Source: Brachionus manjavacas (lineage: Eukaryota > Rotifera > Eurotatoria > Ploima > Brachionidae). Taken from it: 64,000 nucleotides of DNA. Numbering within the stretch: position 1 is the first letter of the stretch; every line of letters begins with the position of its first letter. The position numbers and the translations under genes are program-made. The notes under the pieces were generated by a model. It saw only the letters and a program-made list of their open reading frames with translations. It was not told the origin of the DNA and did not search any database. The stretch is taken from contig JAHQIY010000004.1 of NCBI GenBank assembly GCA_019054805.1, positions 7,076,501 through 7,140,500 on the forward strand, written 5' to 3'. Shown here in pieces: positions 1 to 59,076 of this stretch.

Positions 1-838
<838 letters not shown>

Positions 839-2762
839 AAACACATTTCAACATTTCAAATTATTAAGATTTTAAAAATTATTTTAAGCAATAAATTTTT
901 TAAAAAATCATTGTTTTTGTTGCTGTCTTGGAAAAAAGTGTGTGTCGTAGATGTTTAATTTTAATTTTTTTTATTTAAAGCTTTAATAATCTTTTTAAGC
1001 CATACATTTTTGTAGGAGATGATTTAATTTCATTAATTATTTCTAAAAAATTTATTTGATAAAAATTGAATTTCGTCATTAATAAGATATTTAAATGGGA
1101 AATATTTCGGAAATTTTAGGAAAAAAACTGACAATTTGTAAAATAAGTTAAATGACCAGATGAAATAATATATATTGCAATTTTCTCTCAAAATTTTCAC
1201 CGTTTGTTCAAGAAGCAATTTTTCTTAATTAGGCTTTTGATTAATAGAAATATTTATTAAAAAAACATGATTAGTGTATCAACACCTTAATACTCAAAAA
1301 ACGACATGGATATTAATTACAATTTGATTAATATTTGCATATTAATCTTTTATCTATGACTTGAGTATTCAATGCAGTTATCATGCGTACCTTAAAGTAT
1401 TTTGATGCCAGACATTTCAACCAAAATTTCTTGATTTATCATTAATAACTTAAAAAATATCGATCATAATTTTCTCTTGAAATTTAGATCGTAGCAATAT
1501 TGAATCAAATTTAAATTTGTCTAAGAAATTAATTTGAAGTAAAGTATGCTGATTTATGATTACTTTTGAATAAAATTAATTTAATGATTGCTAAAAAGTT
1601 GCTTCATTTAGTTTAGTTTAACTCAATTGAGATTACGAAATTTTTAAATCGATGTATCTTTTGTCTTAAGACATGGTCTAGCTAAAAATTATTTAAAATT
1701 TTTTACTTGGATTTTTTATGGTTAAAGTTTTATTTCATCAACTCAAGCAATTTTATAAAATCAGGAATCAAAACTAAAATAAATTTAGATTTTGTTAGAA
1801 ATCAACAGCGGAATTCAGTTGAATATAATTTTAGTTTATACTTTTGTATTTTTTTCAATTGAATAAAGAAAACTCTATATTTATAATGTAAATTATCCGT
1901 AAGCGTATTTTTTAACTTTCAGAACCACTAGAACTTTTGATAAGTATTGTTTCCGGTTTTTATCTTGAATTCACGAATTTACAGCTCTCAAGGTGTCTAA
2001 AATAATATAAAAAGCCATTTGTAATAACAAATGTAAAACCAGAATCATCGGTGATCGGTCTGAAAATTTAATAATGTTTTTGAAAGATTCATTAAAGAAA
2101 CTAATGGTTCCGGTACTTTATTAACCATTCTTGTAAAAACATGTTCAATTTTGCTGCATTTTCGGCTAATGAAATTCAATAACTCTAAAGATCTACTGAT
2201 GAATTAAATTAAAAATGCAGTTCTTTAGAGTTAGGTGATGCTTTATCTCGACAAATTGATAACCAAAAAAATAAAAGCTTCACACAGAGAAAAAAGGAAA
2301 TAATTCCAAATCAAATTTCTTCTTTAAATTCTCAAGTATTTATCAATGTTTAATTCAATAAAAGTAAAATTATTAAGTTCATTACGTAAATTAAGCTTTT
2401 GTATTGGCGTAGTTTTTCGTTAGTCGATGAATTTTTTTTTAGGAGATAATTTAATCTAAAATAGTAGATAAAATAAAAAGTAGATAAATAATTTTTTTAA
2501 TAAGATAAAAATAGTATTCAAGAGATATTTTTATTCAAATGTAGATAATTGTTTTCTGAAGTAGATATTTGTCATAAAAGTCCTAATTTTTTGTTTTTTG
2601 ACACTTACACTTCAAAAAATGACCAGTTTTAATTAAATTAATATCTTAATTGCGCAATATATTAAGCTAAACATATTTGATATACCTAGAAATTCATTAA
2701 TAGAAATTATAGAACTTTTTAATTTAATTAAAACAAAAATAAAATTATTAAAATAATTTTAC
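839..2762. other. AT-rich spacer within the duplicated block
   Basis: No gene is supported here. The sequence is the spacer between tubulin and the LINE fragment and is repeated almost exactly at 11849-13772, differing mainly by 1-2 bases in A or T runs. Open frames are short and low-complexity. Confidence 0.7.
890..930 (+). terminator. Polyadenylation signal of the first alpha-tubulin copy
   Basis: AATAAA at 890-895, 52 bp after the stop codon, is followed at about 911-930 by a GT-rich stretch, the usual downstream cleavage element. The same arrangement is repeated at 11900 in the second copy. Confidence 0.6.
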
Positions 2763-3997
2763 TCTTCGTGAAGGTAGAGTCCCTAAAGCATGGAAAACAT
2801 CGAACATTACTATGATTAAAAAAAGCCTCTTCTTTACAAGATCCTTTAAATTATAGACCAATTAGTATAACGAGTTGTTTAGGAAAGCTCCTGGAACGCA
2901 TAGTATTTTCAAGATTATACAATTATTTGGAACAAAATTCACTCCTTATCCAGGAGCAGTCTGGATTTAGAAAACACCGGCGAACATCAGATAATCTTTT
3001 CTTTTTAATTCAAAAAATTGTGGAATCATTTAATAGAAAAAAAAGAGTTTGTGGCCTGTTTTTTGATATTTCTAAAGCCTTTGATAGGGTTTGGCATGAA
3101 GGTCTACTTTTTAAATTGATTAAAATGAATCCACCTCATTACTTGACTAACTGGATTAGATCCTTTTTAGATAGAAGGACATTTAAGGTAAATGTGAATG
3201 ACCAATTGAGCGACGAATATCAAATAACTGCAGGTGTTCCTCAAGGCTCAGTAATTAGTCCTCTTTTATTTAGTATATATATTAATGACATCCTAAAAAG
3301 GAATAAAACAAATAATGAATACTCTCTGCTTTTCTCAGATGATCTAGTTACATTCTTCATTTATAACAAGAAAGGGAACCTAGAAAATAAGATTAATAAA
3401 TACACCAACGAACTAGAACAATGGCTTATTAAATGGAAAATGAAGATATCAGTTGAAAAGTCGTGTTCAGTAGTCTTTTCTAGTTACAAAAAAGAGAGTG
3501 ATAATCTAAACTTAAAAATCTATGGAAACAGAATAGTGAGCCAAAAAGAAATCAAGTTTCTTGGTATTAAATTTGATTCTAAGTTAAACTTTAATATACT
3601 AGTAGACGAAATTAAAGAACGCTGCAACAAAAGGCTAAATATTATTAAGATATTGTCAAACAAAAAATGGGGTCTCAATCAAAACACACTAGGAAATTTA
3701 TATAAATCTTTAGTATACCCAACTCCATTGTGTAATTGCTACCTTACTATTGCTTCTTTTTTTCCTGGAACTTGAACTATTTAAACATGTGCCACATGAA
3801 ACAATCTTTTCCAATTTATGTCTTTTCAACTTTAATTTTTATTAGCTTATTTACTCTATTTTGATTCTTTTTTTTTATCTAATTTTATTAACTTTAATAT
3901 TATTTTAATTTTATTTTTTATTTTATTTTTAACTTATTCTGAAGGAGCTCTTGCTCGGTACAGAAAACAAATAAATAAAAATAAATAAATAAAATAT
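2763..3997 (+). mobile_element. 5'-truncated non-LTR retrotransposon (LINE-1a), reverse transcriptase part
   Basis: The best open frame, 2927-3775, encodes a reverse transcriptase fragment: a QSGFR motif, the finger/palm AFDRVWHEGL stretch, AGVPQGSVISPLLF, and the catalytic box as FSDDL (both aspartates kept, the usual FADD or YADD alanine changed to serine). A related frame begins near 2763 with a NYRPIS-type motif, so the copy lacks ORF1, the endonuclease and the start of RT. The 3' end has a short hairpin (3937-3965) followed by an A-rich AAAT-repeat tail to about 3996. This is a dead-on-arrival copy of a Jockey/CR1-like LINE. Clade assignment is an inference. Confidence 0.9.
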
Positions 3998-4057
3998 ACT
4001 TTTCATTGAATTATACTTCGAAAAAAAAATAAACTAAAACTTGCCTGAACTAAAAAA

Positions 4058-4181
4058 TGTCTGAAGTTTCCTCAACTTCTGTACTCTTATCAGTCAATAA
4101 TCAGGAAAATCAACTTGATAATACTGATAATGATGTTGAAGACATAGAAGAAATTCAAACTAAGCGCGGAACTTACACTGT
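4058..4181 (+). pseudogene. 5' end of a MULE-like transposase gene, cut at the duplication edge
   Basis: Codes for about 41 residues (Asp/Glu-rich) identical to the start of the frame at 15094. Homology to copy B stops at the base after ACTTACACTGT. In this copy the following bases give GTAAGT, a textbook splice donor, but the second exon expected from copy B (beginning TTTACGACG) is not found downstream, so the gene is truncated here. Confidence 0.7.
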
Positions 4182-10471: not shown

Positions 10472-11848
<1,377 letters not shown>

Positions 11849-13772
11849 AAACACATTTCAACATTTCAAATTATTAAGATTTTAAAAATTATTTTAAGCA
11901 ATAAATTTTTTAAAAAATCATTGTTTTTGTTGCTGTCTTGGAAAAAAGTGTGTGTCGTAGATGTTTAATTTTAATTTTTTTTATTTAAAGCTTTAATAAT
12001 CTTTTTAAGCCATACATTTTTGTAGGAGATGATTTAATTTCATTAATTATTTCTAAAAAATTTATTTGATAAAAATTGAATTTCGTCATTAATAAGATAT
12101 TTAAATGGGAAATATTTCGGAAATTTTAGGAAAAAAAAACTGACAATTTGTAAAATAAGTTAAATGACCAGATGAAATAATATATATTGCAATTTTCTCT
12201 CAAAATTTTCACCGTTTGTTCAAGAAGCAATTTTTTCTTAATTAGGCTTTTGATTAATAGAAATATTTATTAAAAAAACATGATTAGTGTATCAACACCT
12301 TAATACTCAAAAAACGACATGGATATTAATTACAATTTGATTAATATTTGCATATTAATCTTTTATCTATGACTTGAGTATTCAATGCAGTTATCATGCG
12401 TACCTTAAAGTATTTTGATGCCAGACATTTCAACCAAAATTTCTTGATTTATCATTAATAACTTAAAAAATATCGATCATAATTTTCTCTTGAAATTTAG
12501 ATCGTAGCAATATTGAATCAAATTTAAATTTGTCTAAGAAATTAATTTGAAGTAAAGTATGCTGATTTATGATTACTTTTGAATAAAATTAATTTAATGA
12601 TTGCTAAAAAGTTGCTTCATTTAGTTTAGTTTAACTCAATTGAGATTACGAAATTTTTAAATCGATGTATCTTTTGTCTTAAGACATGGTCTAGCTAAAA
12701 ATTATTTAAAATTTTTTACTTGGATTTTTTATGGTTAAAGTTTTATTTCATCAACTCAAGCAATTTTATAAAATCAGGAATCAAAACTAAAATAAATTTA
12801 GATTTTGTTAGAAATCAACAGCGGAATTCAGTTGAATATAATTTTAGTTTATACTTTTGTATTTTTTTTTCAATTGAATAAAGAAAACTCTATATTTATA
12901 ATGTAAATTATCCGTAAGCGTATTTTTTAACTTTCAGAACCACTAGAACTTTTGATAAGTATTGTTTCCGGTTTTTATCTTGAATTCACGAATTTACAGC
13001 TCTCAAGGTGTCTAAAATAATATAAAAAGCCATTTGTAATAACAAATGTAAAACCAGAATCATCGGTGATCGGTCTGAAAATTTAATAATGTTTTTGAAA
13101 GATTCATTAAAGAAACTAATGGTTCCGGTACTTTATTAACCATTCTTGTAAAAACATGTTCAATTTTGCTGCATTTTCGGCTAATGAAATTCAATAACTC
13201 TAAAGATCTACTGATGAATTAAATTAAAAATGCAGTTCTTTAGAGTTAGGTGATGCTTTATCTCGACAAATTGATAACCAAAAAATAAAAGCTTCACACA
13301 GAGAAAAAAGGAAATAATTCCAAATCAAATTTCTTCTTTAAATTCTCAAGTATTTATCAATGTTTAATTCAATAAAAGTAAAATTATTAAGTTCATTACG
13401 TAAATTAAGCTTTTGTATTGGCGTAGTTTTTCGTTAGTCGATGAATTTTTTTTTAGGAGATAATTTAATCTAAAATAGTAGATAAAATAAAAAGTAGATA
13501 AATAATTTTTTTAATAAGATAAAAATAGTATTCAAGAGATATTTTTATTCAAATGTAGATAATTGTTTTCTGAAGTAGATATTTGTCATAAAAGTCCTAA
13601 TTTTTTGTTTTTTGACACTTACACTTCAAAAAATGACCAGTTTTAATTAAATTAATATCTTAATTGCGCAATATATTAAGCTAAACATATTTGATATACC
13701 TAGAAATTCATTAATAGAAATTATAGAACTTTTTAATTTAATTAAAACAAAAATAAAATTATTAAAATAATT
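11849..13772. other. Duplicated AT-rich spacer
   Basis: Copy of 839-2762 with small homopolymer indels. I see no gene. Confidence 0.7.
11900..11940 (+). terminator. Polyadenylation signal of alpha-tubulin copy 2
   Basis: AATAAA at 11900-11905 followed by a GT-rich stretch, identical to the signal at 890 in copy A. Confidence 0.6.
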
Positions 13773-15031
13773 TTACTCTTCGTGAAGGTAGAGTCCCTAA
13801 AGCATGGAAAACATCGAACATTACTATGATTAAAAAAAAGCCTCTTCTTTACAAGATCCTTTAAATTATAGACCAATTAGTATAACGAGTTGTTTAGGAA
13901 AGCTCCTGGAACGCATAGTATTTTCAAGATTATACAATTATTTGGAACAAAATTCACTCCTTATCCAGGAGCAGTCTGGATTTAGAAAACACCGGCGAAC
14001 ATCAGATAATCTTTTCTTTTTAATTCAAAAAATTGTGGAATCATTTAATAGAAAAAAGAGTTTGTGGCCTGTTTTTTGATATTTCTAAAGCCTTTGATAG
14101 GGTTTGGCATGAAGGTCTACTTTTTAAATTGATTAAAATGAATCCACCTCATTACTTGACTAACTGGATTAGATCCTTTTTAGATAGAAGGACATTTAAG
14201 GTAAATGTGAATGACCAATTGAGCGACGAATATCAAATAACTGCAGGTGTTCCTCAAGGCTCAGTAATTAGTCCTCTTTTATTTAGTATATATATTAATG
14301 ACATCCTAAAAAGGAATAAAACAAATAATGAATACTCTCTGCTTTTCTCAGATGATCTAGTTACATTCTTCATTTATAACAAGAAAGGGAACCTAGAAAA
14401 TAAGATTAATAAATACACCAACGAACTAGAACAATGGCTTATTAAATGGAAAATGAAGATATCAGTTGAAAAGTCGTGTTCAGTAGTCTTTTCTAGTTAA
14501 AAAAAGAGAGTGATAATCTAAACTTAAAAATCTATGGAAACAGAATAGTGAGCCAAAAAGAAATCAAGTTTCTTGGTATTAAATTTGATTCTAAGTTAAA
14601 CTTTAATATACTAGTAGACGAAATTAAAGAACGCTGCAACAAAAGGCTAAATATTATTAAGATATTGTCAAACAAAAAATGGGGTCTCAATCAAAACACA
14701 CTAGGAAATTTATATAAATCTTTAGTATACCCAACTCCATTGTGTAATTGCTACCTTACTATTGCTTCTTTTTTTCCTGGAACTTGAACTTTTTAAACAT
14801 GTGCCACATGAAACAATCTTTTCCAATTTATGTCTTTTCAACTTTAATTTTTATTAGCTTATTTACTCTATTTTGATTCTTTTTTTTTTTATCTAATTTT
14901 ATTAACTTTAATTTTATTTTAATTTTATTTTAATTTTATTTTTAATTTTATTTTTTATTTTATTTTTAACTTATTCTGAAGGAGCTCTTGCTCGGTACAG
15001 AAAACAAATAAATAAAAATAAATAAATAAAA
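13773..15031 (+). mobile_element. 5'-truncated LINE-1b, duplicate copy with added lesions
   Basis: Duplicate of the element at 2763-3997. Relative to copy A it has lost two A residues near 14053, which breaks the frame. It also carries a base change near 14500 that turns a tyrosine codon after a Ser-Ser stretch into TAA. RT motifs (AFDRVWHEGL, AGVPQGSV, FSDDL) are otherwise the same. The hairpin and AAAT-repeat tail are retained (about 14970-15031). Confidence 0.9.
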
Positions 15032-15093
15032 TATACTATTCATTGAATTATACTTCGAAAAAAAAATAAACTAAAACTTGCCTGAACTAAAAA

Positions 15094-15824
15094 ATGTCTG
15101 AAGTTTCCTCAACTTCTGTACTCTTATCAGTCAATAATCAGGAAAATCAACTTGATAATACTGATAATGATGTTGAAGACATAGAAGAAATTCAAACTAA
15201 GCGCGGAACTTACACTGTTTACGACGAATACGCAACTTATGCTCACATTGCCGAATTTGTAGAGTCTCTTGAGCAAGGCCAGATAGACGGAAATAAGTGT
15301 TCAAAAAAGGAAAAAAGAGTTACAAAACTTGGCGAAAAGCAATTTTACAAGTGTAGCTCTTGCTCAAAAAAACGTTTTCGCTAAAGCTTCGAACAAGTCT
15401 AGAAGTTCAAGTATGTATCGAAGATGGTCTCCACCAGCACAGAAACGCTAATTCAAAAGAAGCATGGGAAAAAAGCAAAAATCGGGTGTTGGAAATGTAC
15501 CAGAAAGAGGGTAAAAAACCGAAAGCAATTTCAAGATGGCTTCGTCTTCATTTATTAGAAGGTTATGTAGAAATTTCGCAAACACAAATTTCAAACCTCA
15601 TACAAAGACTTAAAAAACAAGATGAACCGACAATGACAGTTGAGATGCTCAAAAACTGGTGTGATTCACATACTACCATTCCTGACGATTTTGACAAATT
15701 TTTTGCTGTTTCCGACTTTAAAGTTACACCTGACGAGCTGAGTTTCAAGATATTTTTAACAACAAAACGATTAATTTCGTTTACCACAAAGTGCAAGCAT
15801 CTTTCAAATATGAAAGAAGAATAA
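15094..15824 (+). pseudogene. MULE-like transposase N-terminal part, one frameshift
   Basis: Two overlapping frames (15094-15384 and 15360-15824) join into one sensible protein if a single frameshift near 15370 is allowed. The first part is acidic, then has a FLYWCH-like zinc-binding segment (YKCSSCSKK). After the shift come a His-x-His end (GLHQHRN), a helical KAISRWLRL region and the stretch DELSFKIFLTTKRL. This last stretch is typical of the region just before the MULE DDE catalytic core. The core itself is absent after 15824. It is therefore a broken Mutator-like element, truncated at the 3' side. The related minus-strand fragment at 5160-5838 holds part of the missing core. Confidence 0.6.
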
Positions 15825-25061: not shown

Positions 25062-26640
<1,579 letters not shown>

Positions 26641-33206: not shown

Positions 33207-36200
33207 ATGTCCAAAAATAGAAATATATGGAGGATTGATGGAAAATTTGTAACAGGAATTGATAAAACAAAAATTCGAGATAATTCATATAATCTGAATA
33301 AAACTGAAAGAAAACCAATAAACCCTCAATATATATATCCTTTAAAAAAGTTAAATTCACAAAGCAGAAGCGTGACCATAAATTTAAATGAAGCAAGCGA
33401 TGATGAAAATAGAACAAATGAAAAGGAATCAGAAGATATTAAAAAAGAATTAACAGAAAATGAAAAGAATAATAAGAATAGAAATATTTTAAGATTAAAA
33501 TTGCCCATTTGGGTTGTATTAATAATTTTGGGAATAATAATATTGATTGCTTTATTATCACTTTTAGCGATTTATTTAGGAATAAAAGAAAAAAATGAAA
33601 AAAAAGGAGAAGAAGATGTAAATGAAGCATTTTATACGAATGAAGAAGAAAATTCAATTGCAGCCGATTTTGAAAAGATGACAGTTTTAATAAAACAAAC
33701 TTCAAGTTATTTAAACATTAAGAAAGAAAACAAAACAAACTATCTTACATTTGGGCACACTATCAGCACACAAAACAAACTATCTTATTCTCAGAGGCCA
33801 GTGATTTACGAAGAACAAACTAGTAGTGATAAAGCGTTAAAATCGACGGATTCACAAAGTGATGTCGTCTTGCAATCTACTTTGATGAAAAATACAGTTA
33901 ATACTGTGCCTGAGACTAGTCAAGAAAGTTTTTCGCACATTCAAACTTCATTGAGTTATCAAGATGCTTCATCAACGCAAACTGGTCTTTTCTCCGATAC
34001 AAAAGCTCCTTTTTTCGATATAACTGAAGATCAGTCAGCTTCGAATTCATATACACAGATTTCAAAAATAATTGGCCAGACAGCTGAAGCCTCCTCTATC
34101 ACAAACCAACAAGAAAATTATTCTCGAATTAAAGAAACTACACCTTATCATCATTCATATGAATTCACTACAAATGAGAAGGCTCATACAACGACTCAAG
34201 ATAAATTGGTTTCAAACTCTGATTCATTTGAGAATACTGTTCAATCAAATATGGGCAAAATTACATCAGAGCAAAGATCAGTTAGTGATTATGCTGAAAC
34301 CCATTATACTGACAATATTCAAGGATCACAACATTCATTGAGCTCACAATCAACAATGGCTGCACAAATAGAATCAAAAACAACAACTGATTCGGAAAGA
34401 TTGTTTTCAAATACAAAAAAGACACTCAAGTTGATTCAACGCAATATCTAGCTTATACGATATCAAGTAAGCGAAATTCAGAAAAAACAATGGCAACCAA
34501 TCTGGAAGAATCGGCACACTCAAATTCTTTTTCTCAGACGCCAGTGATTTACGAAGAACAAACTAGTAGTGATAAAGCGTTAAAATCGACGGATTCACAA
34601 AGTGATGTCGTCTTGCAATCTACTTTGATGAAAAATACAGTTAATACTGTGCCTGAGACTAGTCAAGAAAGTTTTTCGCACATTCAAACTTCATTGAGTT
34701 ATCAAGATGCTTCATCAACGCAAACTGGTCTTTTCTCCGATACAAAAGCTCCTTTTTTCGATATAACTGAAGATCAGTCAGCTTCGAATTCATATACACA
34801 GATTTCAAAAATAATTGGCCAGACAGCTGAAGCCTCCTCTATCACAAACCAACAAGAAAATTATTCTCGAATTAAAGAAACTACACCTTATCATCATTCA
34901 TATGAATTCACTACAAATGAGAAGGCTCATACAACGACTCAAGATAAATTGGTTTCAAACTCTGATTCATTTGAGAATACTGTTCAATCAAATATGGACA
35001 AAATTACATCAGAGCAAAGATCAGTTAGTGATTATGCTGAAACCCATTATACTGACAATATTCAAGGATCACAACATTCATTGAGCTCACAATCAACAAT
35101 GGCTGCACAAATAGAATCAAAAACAACAACTGATTCGGAAAGATTGTTTTCAAATACAAAAAAAGACACTCAAGTTGATTCAACGCAATATCTAGCTTAT
35201 ACGATATCAAGTAAGCGAAATTCAGAAAAAACAATGGCAACCAATCTGGAAGAATCGGCACACTCAAATTCTTTTTCTCAGACGCCAGTGATTTACGAAG
35301 AACAAACTAGTAGTGATAAAGCGTTAAAATCGACGGATTCACAAAGTGATGTCGTCTTGCAATCTACTTTGATGAAAAATACAGTTAATACTGTGCCTGA
35401 GACTAGTCAAGAAAGTTTTTCGCACATTCAAACTTCATTGAGTTATCAAGATGCTTCATCAACGCAAACTGGTCTTTTCTCCGATACAAAAGCTCCTTTT
35501 TTCGATATAACTGAAGATCAGTCAGCTTCGAATTCATATACACAGATTTCAAAAATAATTGGCCAGACAGCTGAAGCCTCCTCTATCACAAACCAACAAG
35601 AAAATTATTCTCGAATTAAAGAAACTACACCTTATCATCATTCATATGAATTCACTACAAATGAGAAGGCTCATACAACGACTCAAGATAAATTGGTTTC
35701 AAACTCTGATTCATTTGAGAATACTGTTCAATCAAATATGGGCAAAATTACATCAGAGCAAAGATCAGTTAGTGATTATGCTGAAACCCATTATACTGAC
35801 AATATTCAAGGATCACAACATTCATTGAGCTCACAATCAACAATGGCTGCACAAATAGAATCAAAAACAACAACTGATTCGGAAAGATTGTTTTCAAATA
35901 CAAAAAAAGACACTCAAGTTGATTCAACGCAATATCTAGCTTATACGATATCAAGTAAGCGAAATTCAGAAAAAACAATGGCAACCAATCTGGAAGAATC
36001 GGCACACTCAAATTCTTTTTCTCAGACGCCAGTGATTTACGAAGAACAAACTAGTAGTGATAAAGCGTTAAAATCGACGGATTCACAAAGTGATGTCGTC
36101 TTGCAATCTACTTTGATGAAAAATACAGTTAATACTGTGCCTGAGACTAGTCAAGAAAGTTTTTCGCACATTCAAACTTCATTGAGTTATCAAGATGCTT

Positions 36201-38236
36201 CATCAACGCAAACTGGTCTTTTCTCCGATACAAAAGCTCCTTTTTTCGATATAACTGAAGATCAGTCAGCTTCGAATTCATATACACAGATTTCAAAAAT
36301 AATTGGCCAGACAGCTGAAGCCTCCTCTATCACAAACCAACAAGAAAATTATTCTCGAATTAAAGAAACTACACCTTATCATCATTCATATGAATTCACT
36401 ACAAATGAGAAGGCTCATACAACGACTCAAGATAAATTGGTTTCAAACTCTGATTCATTTGAGAATACTGTTCAATCAAATATGGACAAAATTACATCAG
36501 AGCAAAGATCAGTTAGTGATTATGCTGAAACCCATTATACTGACAATATTCAAGGATCACAACATTCATTGAGCTCACAATCAACAATGGCTGCACAAAT
36601 AGAATCAAAAACAACAACTGATTCGGAAAGATTGTTTTCAAATACAAAAAAAGACACTCAAGTTGATTCAACGCAATATCTAGCTTATACGATATCAAGT
36701 AAGCGAAATTCAGAAAAAACAATGGCAACCAATCTGGAAGAATCGGCACACTCAAATTCTTTTTCTCAGACGCCAGTGATTTACGAAGAACAAACTAGTA
36801 GTGATAAAGCGTTAAAATCGACGGATTCACAAAGTGATGTCGTCTTGCAATCTACTTTGATGAAAAATACAGTTAATACTGTGCCTGAGACTAGTCAAGA
36901 AAGTTTTTCGCACATTCAAACTTCATTGAGTTATCAAGATGCTTCATCAACGCAAACTGGTCTTTTCTCCGATACAAAAGCTCCTTTTTTCGATATAACT
37001 GAAGATCAGTCAGCTTCGAATTCATATACACAGATTTCAAAAATAATTGGCCAGACAGCTGAAGCCTCCTCTATCACAAACCAACAAGAAAATTATTCTC
37101 GAATTAAAGAAACTACACCTTATCATCATTCATATGAATTCACTACAAATGAGAAGGCTCATACAACGACTCAAGATAAATTGGTTTCAAACTCTGATTC
37201 ATTTGAGAATACTGTTCAATCAAATATGGACAAAATTACATCAGAGCAAAGATCAGTTAGTGATTATGCTGAAACCCATTATACTGACAATATTCAAGGA
37301 TCACAACATTCATTGAGCTCACAATCAACAATGGCTGCACAAATAGAATCAAAAACAACAACTGATTCGGAAAGATTGTTTTCAAATACAAAAAAAGACA
37401 CTCAAGTTGATTCAACGCAATATCTAGCTTATACGATATCAAGTAAGCGAAATTCAGAAAAAACAATGGCAACCAATCTGGAAGAATCGGCACACTCAAA
37501 TTCTTTTTCTCAGACGCCAGTGATTTACGAAGAACAAACTAGTAGTGATAAAGCGTTAAAATCGACGGATTCACAAAGTGATGTCGTCTTGCAATCTACT
37601 TTGATGAAAAATACAGTTAATACTGTGCCTGAGACTAGTCAAGAAAGTTTTTCGCACATTCAAACTTCATTGAGTTATCAAGATGCTTCATCAACGCAAA
37701 CTGGTCTTTTCTCCGATACAAAAGCTCCTTTTTTCGATATAACTGAAGATCAGTCAGCTTCGAATTCATATACACAGATTTCAAAAATAATTGGCCAGAC
37801 AGCTGAAGCCTCCTCTATCACAAACCAACAAGAAAATTATTCTCGAATTAAAGAAACTACACCTTATCATCATTCATATGAATTCACTACAAATGAGAAG
37901 GCTCATACAACGACTCAAGATAAATTGGTTTCAAACTCTGATTCATTTGAGAATACTGTTCAATCAAATATGGACAAAATTACATCAGAGCAAAGATCAG
38001 TTAGTGATTATGCTGAAACCCATTATACTGACAATATTCAAGGATCACAACATTCATTGAGCTCACAATCAACAATGGCTGCACAAATAGAATCAAAAAC
38101 AACAACTGATTCGGAAAGATTGTTTTCAAATACAAAAAAAGACACTCAAGTTGATTCAACGCAATATCTAGCTTATACGATATCAAGTAAGCGAAATTCA
38201 GAAAAAATACAAGTTTTTTCAAAGTATGATTGGTAA
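33207..38236 (+). CDS. Membrane-anchored Ser/Thr-rich tandem-repeat protein, frame broken once
   Basis: Two same-strand frames, 33207-34451 (414 aa) and 34490-38236 (1248 aa), appear to be one gene. The N-terminal 98 residues are polar and charged, followed by one strong membrane segment (about residues 100-126, LPIWVVLIILGIIILIALL...) and an acidic linker. Then come six copies of a 248-residue (744-bp) repeat rich in Ser, Thr and Gln. Repeats 2-6 begin at 34490, 35234, 35978, 36722 and 37466. They are nearly identical in DNA, differing notably at a Gly/Asp site (NMGKITS or NMDKITS; order G-D-G-D-D-D). Repeat 1 has six A where the others have seven (about 34414-34420), shifting the frame to a stop at 34451. 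The composition suggests a mucin-like, O-glycosylated ectodomain. Family unknown. Confidence 0.8.
33798..38208 (+). repeat. Coding macrosatellite, six units of 744 bp
   Basis: The core CAGTGATTTACGAAGAACAA recurs at 33800, 34543, 35287, 36031, 36775 and 37519, i.e. spacings of 743, 744, 744, 744 and 744 bp. The single 743-bp step is the one-base loss in the A-run. Unit 1 joins the unique N-terminal region through a diverged junction; the last unit ends with a short unique tail. Confidence 0.97.

Positions 38237-55393: not shown

Positions 55394-59076
<3,683 letters not shown>

Follow-up and report, generated by a model that had tools for sequence, protein, structure and literature searches.

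A candidate membrane-anchored protein with six near-identical 248-residue repeats in the rotifer Brachionus manjavacas

We analysed a stretch of 64,000 nucleotides from the rotifer Brachionus manjavacas (GenBank assembly GCA_019054805.1, contig JAHQIY010000004.1, positions 7,076,501 to 7,140,500 of the forward strand; hereafter the window, to which positions refer unless stated otherwise), in which the element at 33207-38236 consists largely of a 744-bp coding unit repeated six times head to tail. Our best explanation, to which we give a probability of about 0.6, is that a single-copy rotifer gene encodes here a type II membrane protein with a six-unit, Ser/Thr/Gln-rich and probably unfolded ectodomain whose copies have been homogenised. 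Such an orphan membrane-anchored tandem-repeat protein, with copies that look homogenised, would be of a kind already known from the MMR genes, that is mmr-a and mmr-b, the MRP motif repeat (mate recognition protein) genes of the Brachionus plicatilis complex (PMC2746195, PMC3495898).

Results

A near-identical coding array

The six copies occupy 33797-38207 on the plus strand, with anchor positions at 33797, 34540, 35284, 36028, 36772, and 37516 and anchor-to-anchor spacings of 743, 744, 744, 744, and 744 bp; Tandem Repeats Finder, run with long periods, reports 33783-38207 with a period of 744, 5.9 copies, and 99% matches. The only substitution between copies is a glycine/aspartate codon (GGC/GAC), with glycine in copy 1 (33797-34539; GGC at 34254-34256) and copy 3 (35284-36027) and aspartate in copy 2 (34540-35283), copy 4 (36028-36771), copy 5 (36772-37515), and copy 6 (37516-38207), which gives the order G-D-G-D-D-D. 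Copy 1 is 743 bp long, one A short, and copy 6 lacks the final 52 bp of the unit and is followed by about 9 non-repeat codons with a stop (38208-38236). When the array is matched to itself at a shift of one unit, the match is interrupted only by the glycine/aspartate base and one indel.

Across copies 2-6, 1 of the 240 compared codons varies (GAC/GGC) and no synonymous site differs over the 720 nt compared in each, for a mean divergence of 0.056% per site; with all six copies included and the indel excluded, the glycine/aspartate site differs in 8 of 15 pairs, or 0.072% per site. Six near-identical 248-residue repeats, their variant order, and their identity at synonymous sites had all been proposed from the sequence in the original prediction, and the anchors, the 744-bp period, and the copy comparison bear this out. 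We found no sub-repeats inside the unit (178 of 200 shuffles were equally good) and no support for a further, diverged copy on the 5' side of the array (366 of 1000 shuffles equally good when the sequence just upstream was compared with the unit end). Among 20 random 10-kb stretches (200 kb in total), none held an array with a period of at least 300, and one held an array with a period of 70.

A single locus without recognised relatives

Both the repeat and the N-terminal part are confined to a single locus in the genome searched (114 Mb in 61 contigs). Beyond the array, the repeat has only two matches in this genome (E 2.8 and 4.5). Nine other matches to the N-terminal part (E 0.02-4.65) were all judged to be chance; the open reading frames (ORFs) at these loci include, as labelled by eye, one resembling a transposase (L010), one for an immunoglobulin-type membrane protein (L014), and one resembling a receptor (L017). 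Searches of viral contigs with both parts and of prokaryote genomes with the repeat yielded no confirmed relatives. Neither the N-terminal part nor the unit has a family above cut-off in Pfam or NCBIfam, and a PDB search with the first reading frame (ORF A, described below) gave three weak matches, the best at E 0.11, so the earlier statement that no family is recognised holds across all three databases. The papers listed by our literature searches include none on this repeat gene.

Coding potential and predicted topology

Read forward, the frames of the unit contain 0, 10, and 23 stops, against 25, 19, and 12 in reverse, and none of 5000 dinucleotide-preserving shuffles was open in any of the six frames; the same result, 0 of 5000 across six frames, was obtained for the N-terminal part. 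With eight ORFs of the window as the training set, codon preference scores the repeat at 0.12 in its coding frame and at -0.15 or lower in the others.

Hydropathy and charge divide the upstream part into an N-terminal domain (about residues 1-99; 33207-33503) with a net charge of +7, a single hydrophobic helix (about residues 100-123; 33504-33575), which AlphaFold models as a helix with a high predicted local distance difference test score (pLDDT) and which we take as a putative type II signal anchor, and a unique stalk between the membrane helix and copy 1 (33576-33796). This is the sole hydrophobic segment, copies 2-6 containing none. The start does not resemble a signal peptide when judged by hydropathy, the best 12-residue mean in the first 40 residues being 0.52. 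Membrane helices can be oriented by the positive-inside rule, and the net charge of +4 in the 15 residues before the helix and -1 in the 15 after it places the repeats outside, though not strongly.

Each unit contains 18.1% serine and 14.5% threonine (32.7% together, in keeping with the Ser/Thr-rich composition first noted), 8.9% glutamine, and no cysteine, and has a net charge of -15 and a charge-hydropathy value on the disordered side. For ORF A, AlphaFold run without relatives gave a mean pLDDT of 47.9. A model of two units had a mean of 38.3 and showed a weak helix over residues 144-192 of unit one, repeated at the equivalent position in unit two, that includes the glycine/aspartate site. 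Because no alignment was available to the model, these low values are weak evidence of disorder; together with the charge-hydropathy value they suggest that the repeat ectodomain is probably unfolded.

MMR genes in the same genome

MMR genes are described as having a signal peptide and gapless near-identical repeats of 87-92 codons, the last of them truncated, with no sign of introns in the published accounts consulted (PMC2746195, PMC3495898). Concerted evolution is held to act on their repeats (PMC3495898), and RNA interference against mmr-b, which reduced circling by 17%, provides evidence for a role in mate recognition (PMC2746195, PMC3495898). The mmr-b forward primer has three sites in this genome, one exact and two with a single mismatch each, and its reversed control has none; an mmr-a forward primer has four exact sites, and its control none. 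These matches mark the genome as one of the B. plicatilis complex. A B. manjavacas primer for another gene, GDP-mannose dehydratase, gave one hit, with 3 mismatches, against two hits for its control, and so lends no support to that species in particular. All three mmr-b loci (L047, L048, and L049) have 261-bp repeats, with open frames of 296, 459, and 728 codons, one gene more than the two B. manjavacas lengths, 3 and 5 repeats, listed in the sections of PMC3495898 used here. The seven start sites all lie on contig C7, the three of mmr-b within about 106 kb (G000:C7:5017935-5124139) and the four of mmr-a within about 49 kb (G000:C7:3669222-3718155), about 1.3 Mb from the mmr-b cluster; whether mmr-b copies share a chromosome is a question left open in those sections (PMC3495898). 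Away from both clusters, a distant MMR-like stretch on the minus strand (G000:C11:1942271-1942657), with 38% identity to MMR-B (E 1.6e-17) and one internal TGA, may represent either a third type or a relic.

Repeats within two of the mmr-b genes diverge by 1.9% and 3.0%, compared with the 0.056% per site of copies 2-6 of the present array, which supports the recent expansion or ongoing homogenisation originally suggested. The hsp82 gene of these rotifers has an average heterozygosity of 0.0016 (PMC3495898); by that measure its alleles differ from one another, on average, more than the copies do.

Two reading frames in the assembled sequence

The base missing from copy 1 belongs to a homopolymer that is A6 in this copy (34415-34420) and A7 in the remaining five (for example 35158-35164 in copy 2). 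As a result, the frame that begins with the ATG at 33207 stops at 34451 and copies 2-6 fall in a different frame. ORF A (33207-34451, 414 residues) therefore comprises the N-terminal domain, the membrane helix, the stalk, and most of copy 1, and ends in 9-10 out-of-frame residues and a TAG at 34449-34451; ORF B (34490-38236, 1248 residues) comprises copies 2-6, whose frame runs open over 1281 codons and ends with the stop at 38236. We therefore reject one ORF spanning 33207-38236: the assembled sequence holds two frames, and the earlier claim of one large protein over this interval does not stand. A single large protein is possible only if one base is wrong or a slip occurs. An intron that restores the frame was also considered, and of the 34 formal GT-AG pairs with a donor between 34000 and 34451 and a length of 20-400 nt, six were inspected by eye and none was convincing.

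Other features of the window

About 4.2 kb of sequence is directly duplicated at an offset of about 11.0 kb (1-4181 and 11011-15218) and contains the end of an alpha-tubulin gene together with reverse-transcriptase fragments, and a third alpha-tubulin gene lies at 25062-26417 on the opposite, minus strand. A second coding repeat within the window, at 56812-57130, is a 39-bp unit present in 8.2 copies with 97% matches that codes for the proline-rich FH1 region in a formin-like gene; the same gene has a likely GT-AG intron of 51 nt at 57521-57571, as read by eye.

Discussion

If our preferred explanation is correct, the basic N-terminal domain of about 99 residues would lie inside, followed by the signal-anchor helix and the stalk, and the six hydrophilic 248-residue units would extend outside, with six in-frame units as the normal state. 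Unequal crossing-over or gene conversion would homogenise the copies, and the likely role would be that of a long (glyco)protein at the surface, with the number of units setting its reach or multivalency. Several observations weigh against this account: the reading frame is interrupted in copy 1 of this assembly; no homologue was found in the rotifer's own genome, the viral contigs, or the prokaryote genomes; codon preference in the N-terminal part is ambiguous, at 0.06 in the coding frame versus 0.15 and 0.069 in two reverse frames; lysine plus arginine are almost balanced across the helix, 5 versus 4; and each 248-residue unit has only one N-glycosylation sequon and 4 prolines. Of the single-pass, surface-type protein that had been proposed, the single-pass part stands, a single helix flanked by net charges of +4 (N-terminal side) and -1 (C-terminal side) fitting such a layout, and the placement at the surface is one that we infer.

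The shortened A tract of copy 1 would be either a consensus error or a young allele, and the probabilities that we attach to these two readings, and to programmed frameshifting below, are matters of judgement. We put the odds at about even that A6 is a base-calling or polishing error of the consensus, in a homopolymer within near-identical copies, and that the true gene is a single frame of about 1676 codons. In favour of this, A7 is present in five of the six copies, each of copies 2-6 is open, and with the register repaired the whole reads as one frame without an internal stop. Frames elsewhere in the assembly argue the other way: 9 of 26 HSP70 match rows cover at least 596 of 599 positions without a stop (the 5 rows that hold one are all partial), and none of the 7 MMR genes whose start is matched by a primer shows an interruption within its matched region. 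However, the coding part of the two mmr-b ORFs that we examined has no homopolymers of 6 or more bases, so such intact-frame controls hardly probe accuracy at an A7 tract inside long repeats. An error here would be compatible with our best explanation and would touch the frame only. Either way, the frameshift illustrates how a single-base difference in such an array can conceal a large gene from annotation.

It is also possible, and we hold this tentatively, that A6 is real and marks a young loss-of-function or length allele that yields only the 414-residue protein with one incomplete unit, copies 2-6 being left untranslated. This reading takes the sequence as assembled, and it has parallels among the MMR genes: a stop-bearing mmr-b copy is reported in the sets of 2 of 27 isolates (PMC3495898), and 3 of 12 MMR-like rows of the present genome contain a stop, in each case at places other than the seven primer-matched starts. 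Against it, the roughly 3.7 kb of downstream frame shows no second lesion, but this is a weak argument because the copies are young and near-identical.

We consider it unlikely that the protein is not at the surface, being oriented N-out/C-in or residing in an inner membrane. The near balance of lysine and arginine across the helix and the single sequon per unit would fit such an arrangement, whereas the net charges favour N-in/C-out, both next to the helix and over the larger parts that flank it (+7 for the N-terminal domain and -15 for a unit).

Programmed -1 frameshifting at A AAA AAG (34415-34421), which would link the two frames and yield a short protein alongside a long one, appears very improbable. 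The heptamer lies in the correct phase and a -1 slip there restores the unit's own sequence, but A7-G minus one A creates this heptamer automatically, ORF A holds nine heptamers of the A AAA AAG type, the downstream RNA is identical in copy 2, and its predicted fold is unexceptional (z -1.49 over 100 nt, equalled by 15 of 200 shuffles, and z 0.28 over 70 nt). A more speculative idea, to which we likewise give very little credence, is that the A7 tract of the units acts as a switch for the length and presence of a surface coat, in which an A added or lost through mutation or ribosomal slippage would toggle between a short one-unit form and a long six-unit form. If this were true, crossing-over would spread or remove the change, and clonal lines would differ at the surface without a gene family.

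The comparison with known repeat proteins sets our preferred explanation, a homogenised membrane-anchored ectodomain, beside several familiar types. Like transmembrane mucins, the predicted protein has a membrane helix and a long tandem-repeat ectodomain, the side of which is suggested by charge. Mucin regions rich in proline, threonine, and serine have at least 40% serine plus threonine and at least 5% proline over 100 residues; none of 1445 segments of 100 residues in the present protein reaches this threshold, the maxima being 36 for serine plus threonine and 3 for proline, which leaves the mucin-like coat proposed earlier weak, and the suggested role in antigen variation is unsupported. 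The abalone egg vitelline envelope receptor for lysin, VERL, carries a ZP domain; Pfam scans of the present gene at E up to 1 found no ZP family, at the level of family profiles, remote folds aside. VERL has 22 repeats of about 153 residues that are at least 95% identical (PMC2704960), and tandem units homogenised inside one gene are a trait that the two have in common. In MUC1, a human disease allele (ADTKD-MUC1) arises by insertion of a C into the 7-base homopolymer of one copy of the variable number tandem repeat (PMC5843638). Both MUC1 and the present gene encode a transmembrane protein with near-identical coding repeats that each contain a 7-base homopolymer, and in both a one-base change in a single copy loses the frame; MUC1 differs in its 60-bp units, in having the membrane helix after the repeats, and in gaining a C where an A is lost here, and the two sequences are unrelated.

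The closest likeness is to the MMR genes, which share with the present gene the same genome, a single gene of head-to-tail near-identical repeats with a truncated last repeat, near-identity even at synonymous sites, orphan sequence, and a surface-type product. The two differ in unit length (248 codons versus 87 in mmr-b or 92 in mmr-a), in layout and number (MMR proteins have a signal peptide, are secreted, and are multi-copy, whereas the present gene has an internal membrane helix and one locus), and in the character of the repeat, which has about 25% non-polar residues (summed from its composition) and one weak predicted helix per unit, versus 55-60% in the mostly non-polar, helical, and globular MMR motif. 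That the present gene is a divergent MMR family member is barely credible despite the shared genome, repeat style, and truncated last repeat, since BLASTP finds no alignment between the unit and MMR-B even with an E limit of 100 (in a shuffle test, 144 of 200 reach the same score), the array is not among the matches of an own-genome search with MMR-B, and the unit length, non-polar content, and start, which is not signal-peptide-like, all disagree. Judged by its sequence, it is not an MMR gene, the resemblance being one of architecture and evolutionary style. The mmr-b genes have provided the published lead that concerted evolution of repeats within a gene may drive reproductive isolation in rotifers (PMC3495898). 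Should the present protein be expressed at the surface, this genome would contain, besides mmr-b, another repeat protein of unrelated sequence, membrane-anchored and far more homogeneous, which would offer an independent test of whether such arrays vary between clones and of recognition versus coat function.

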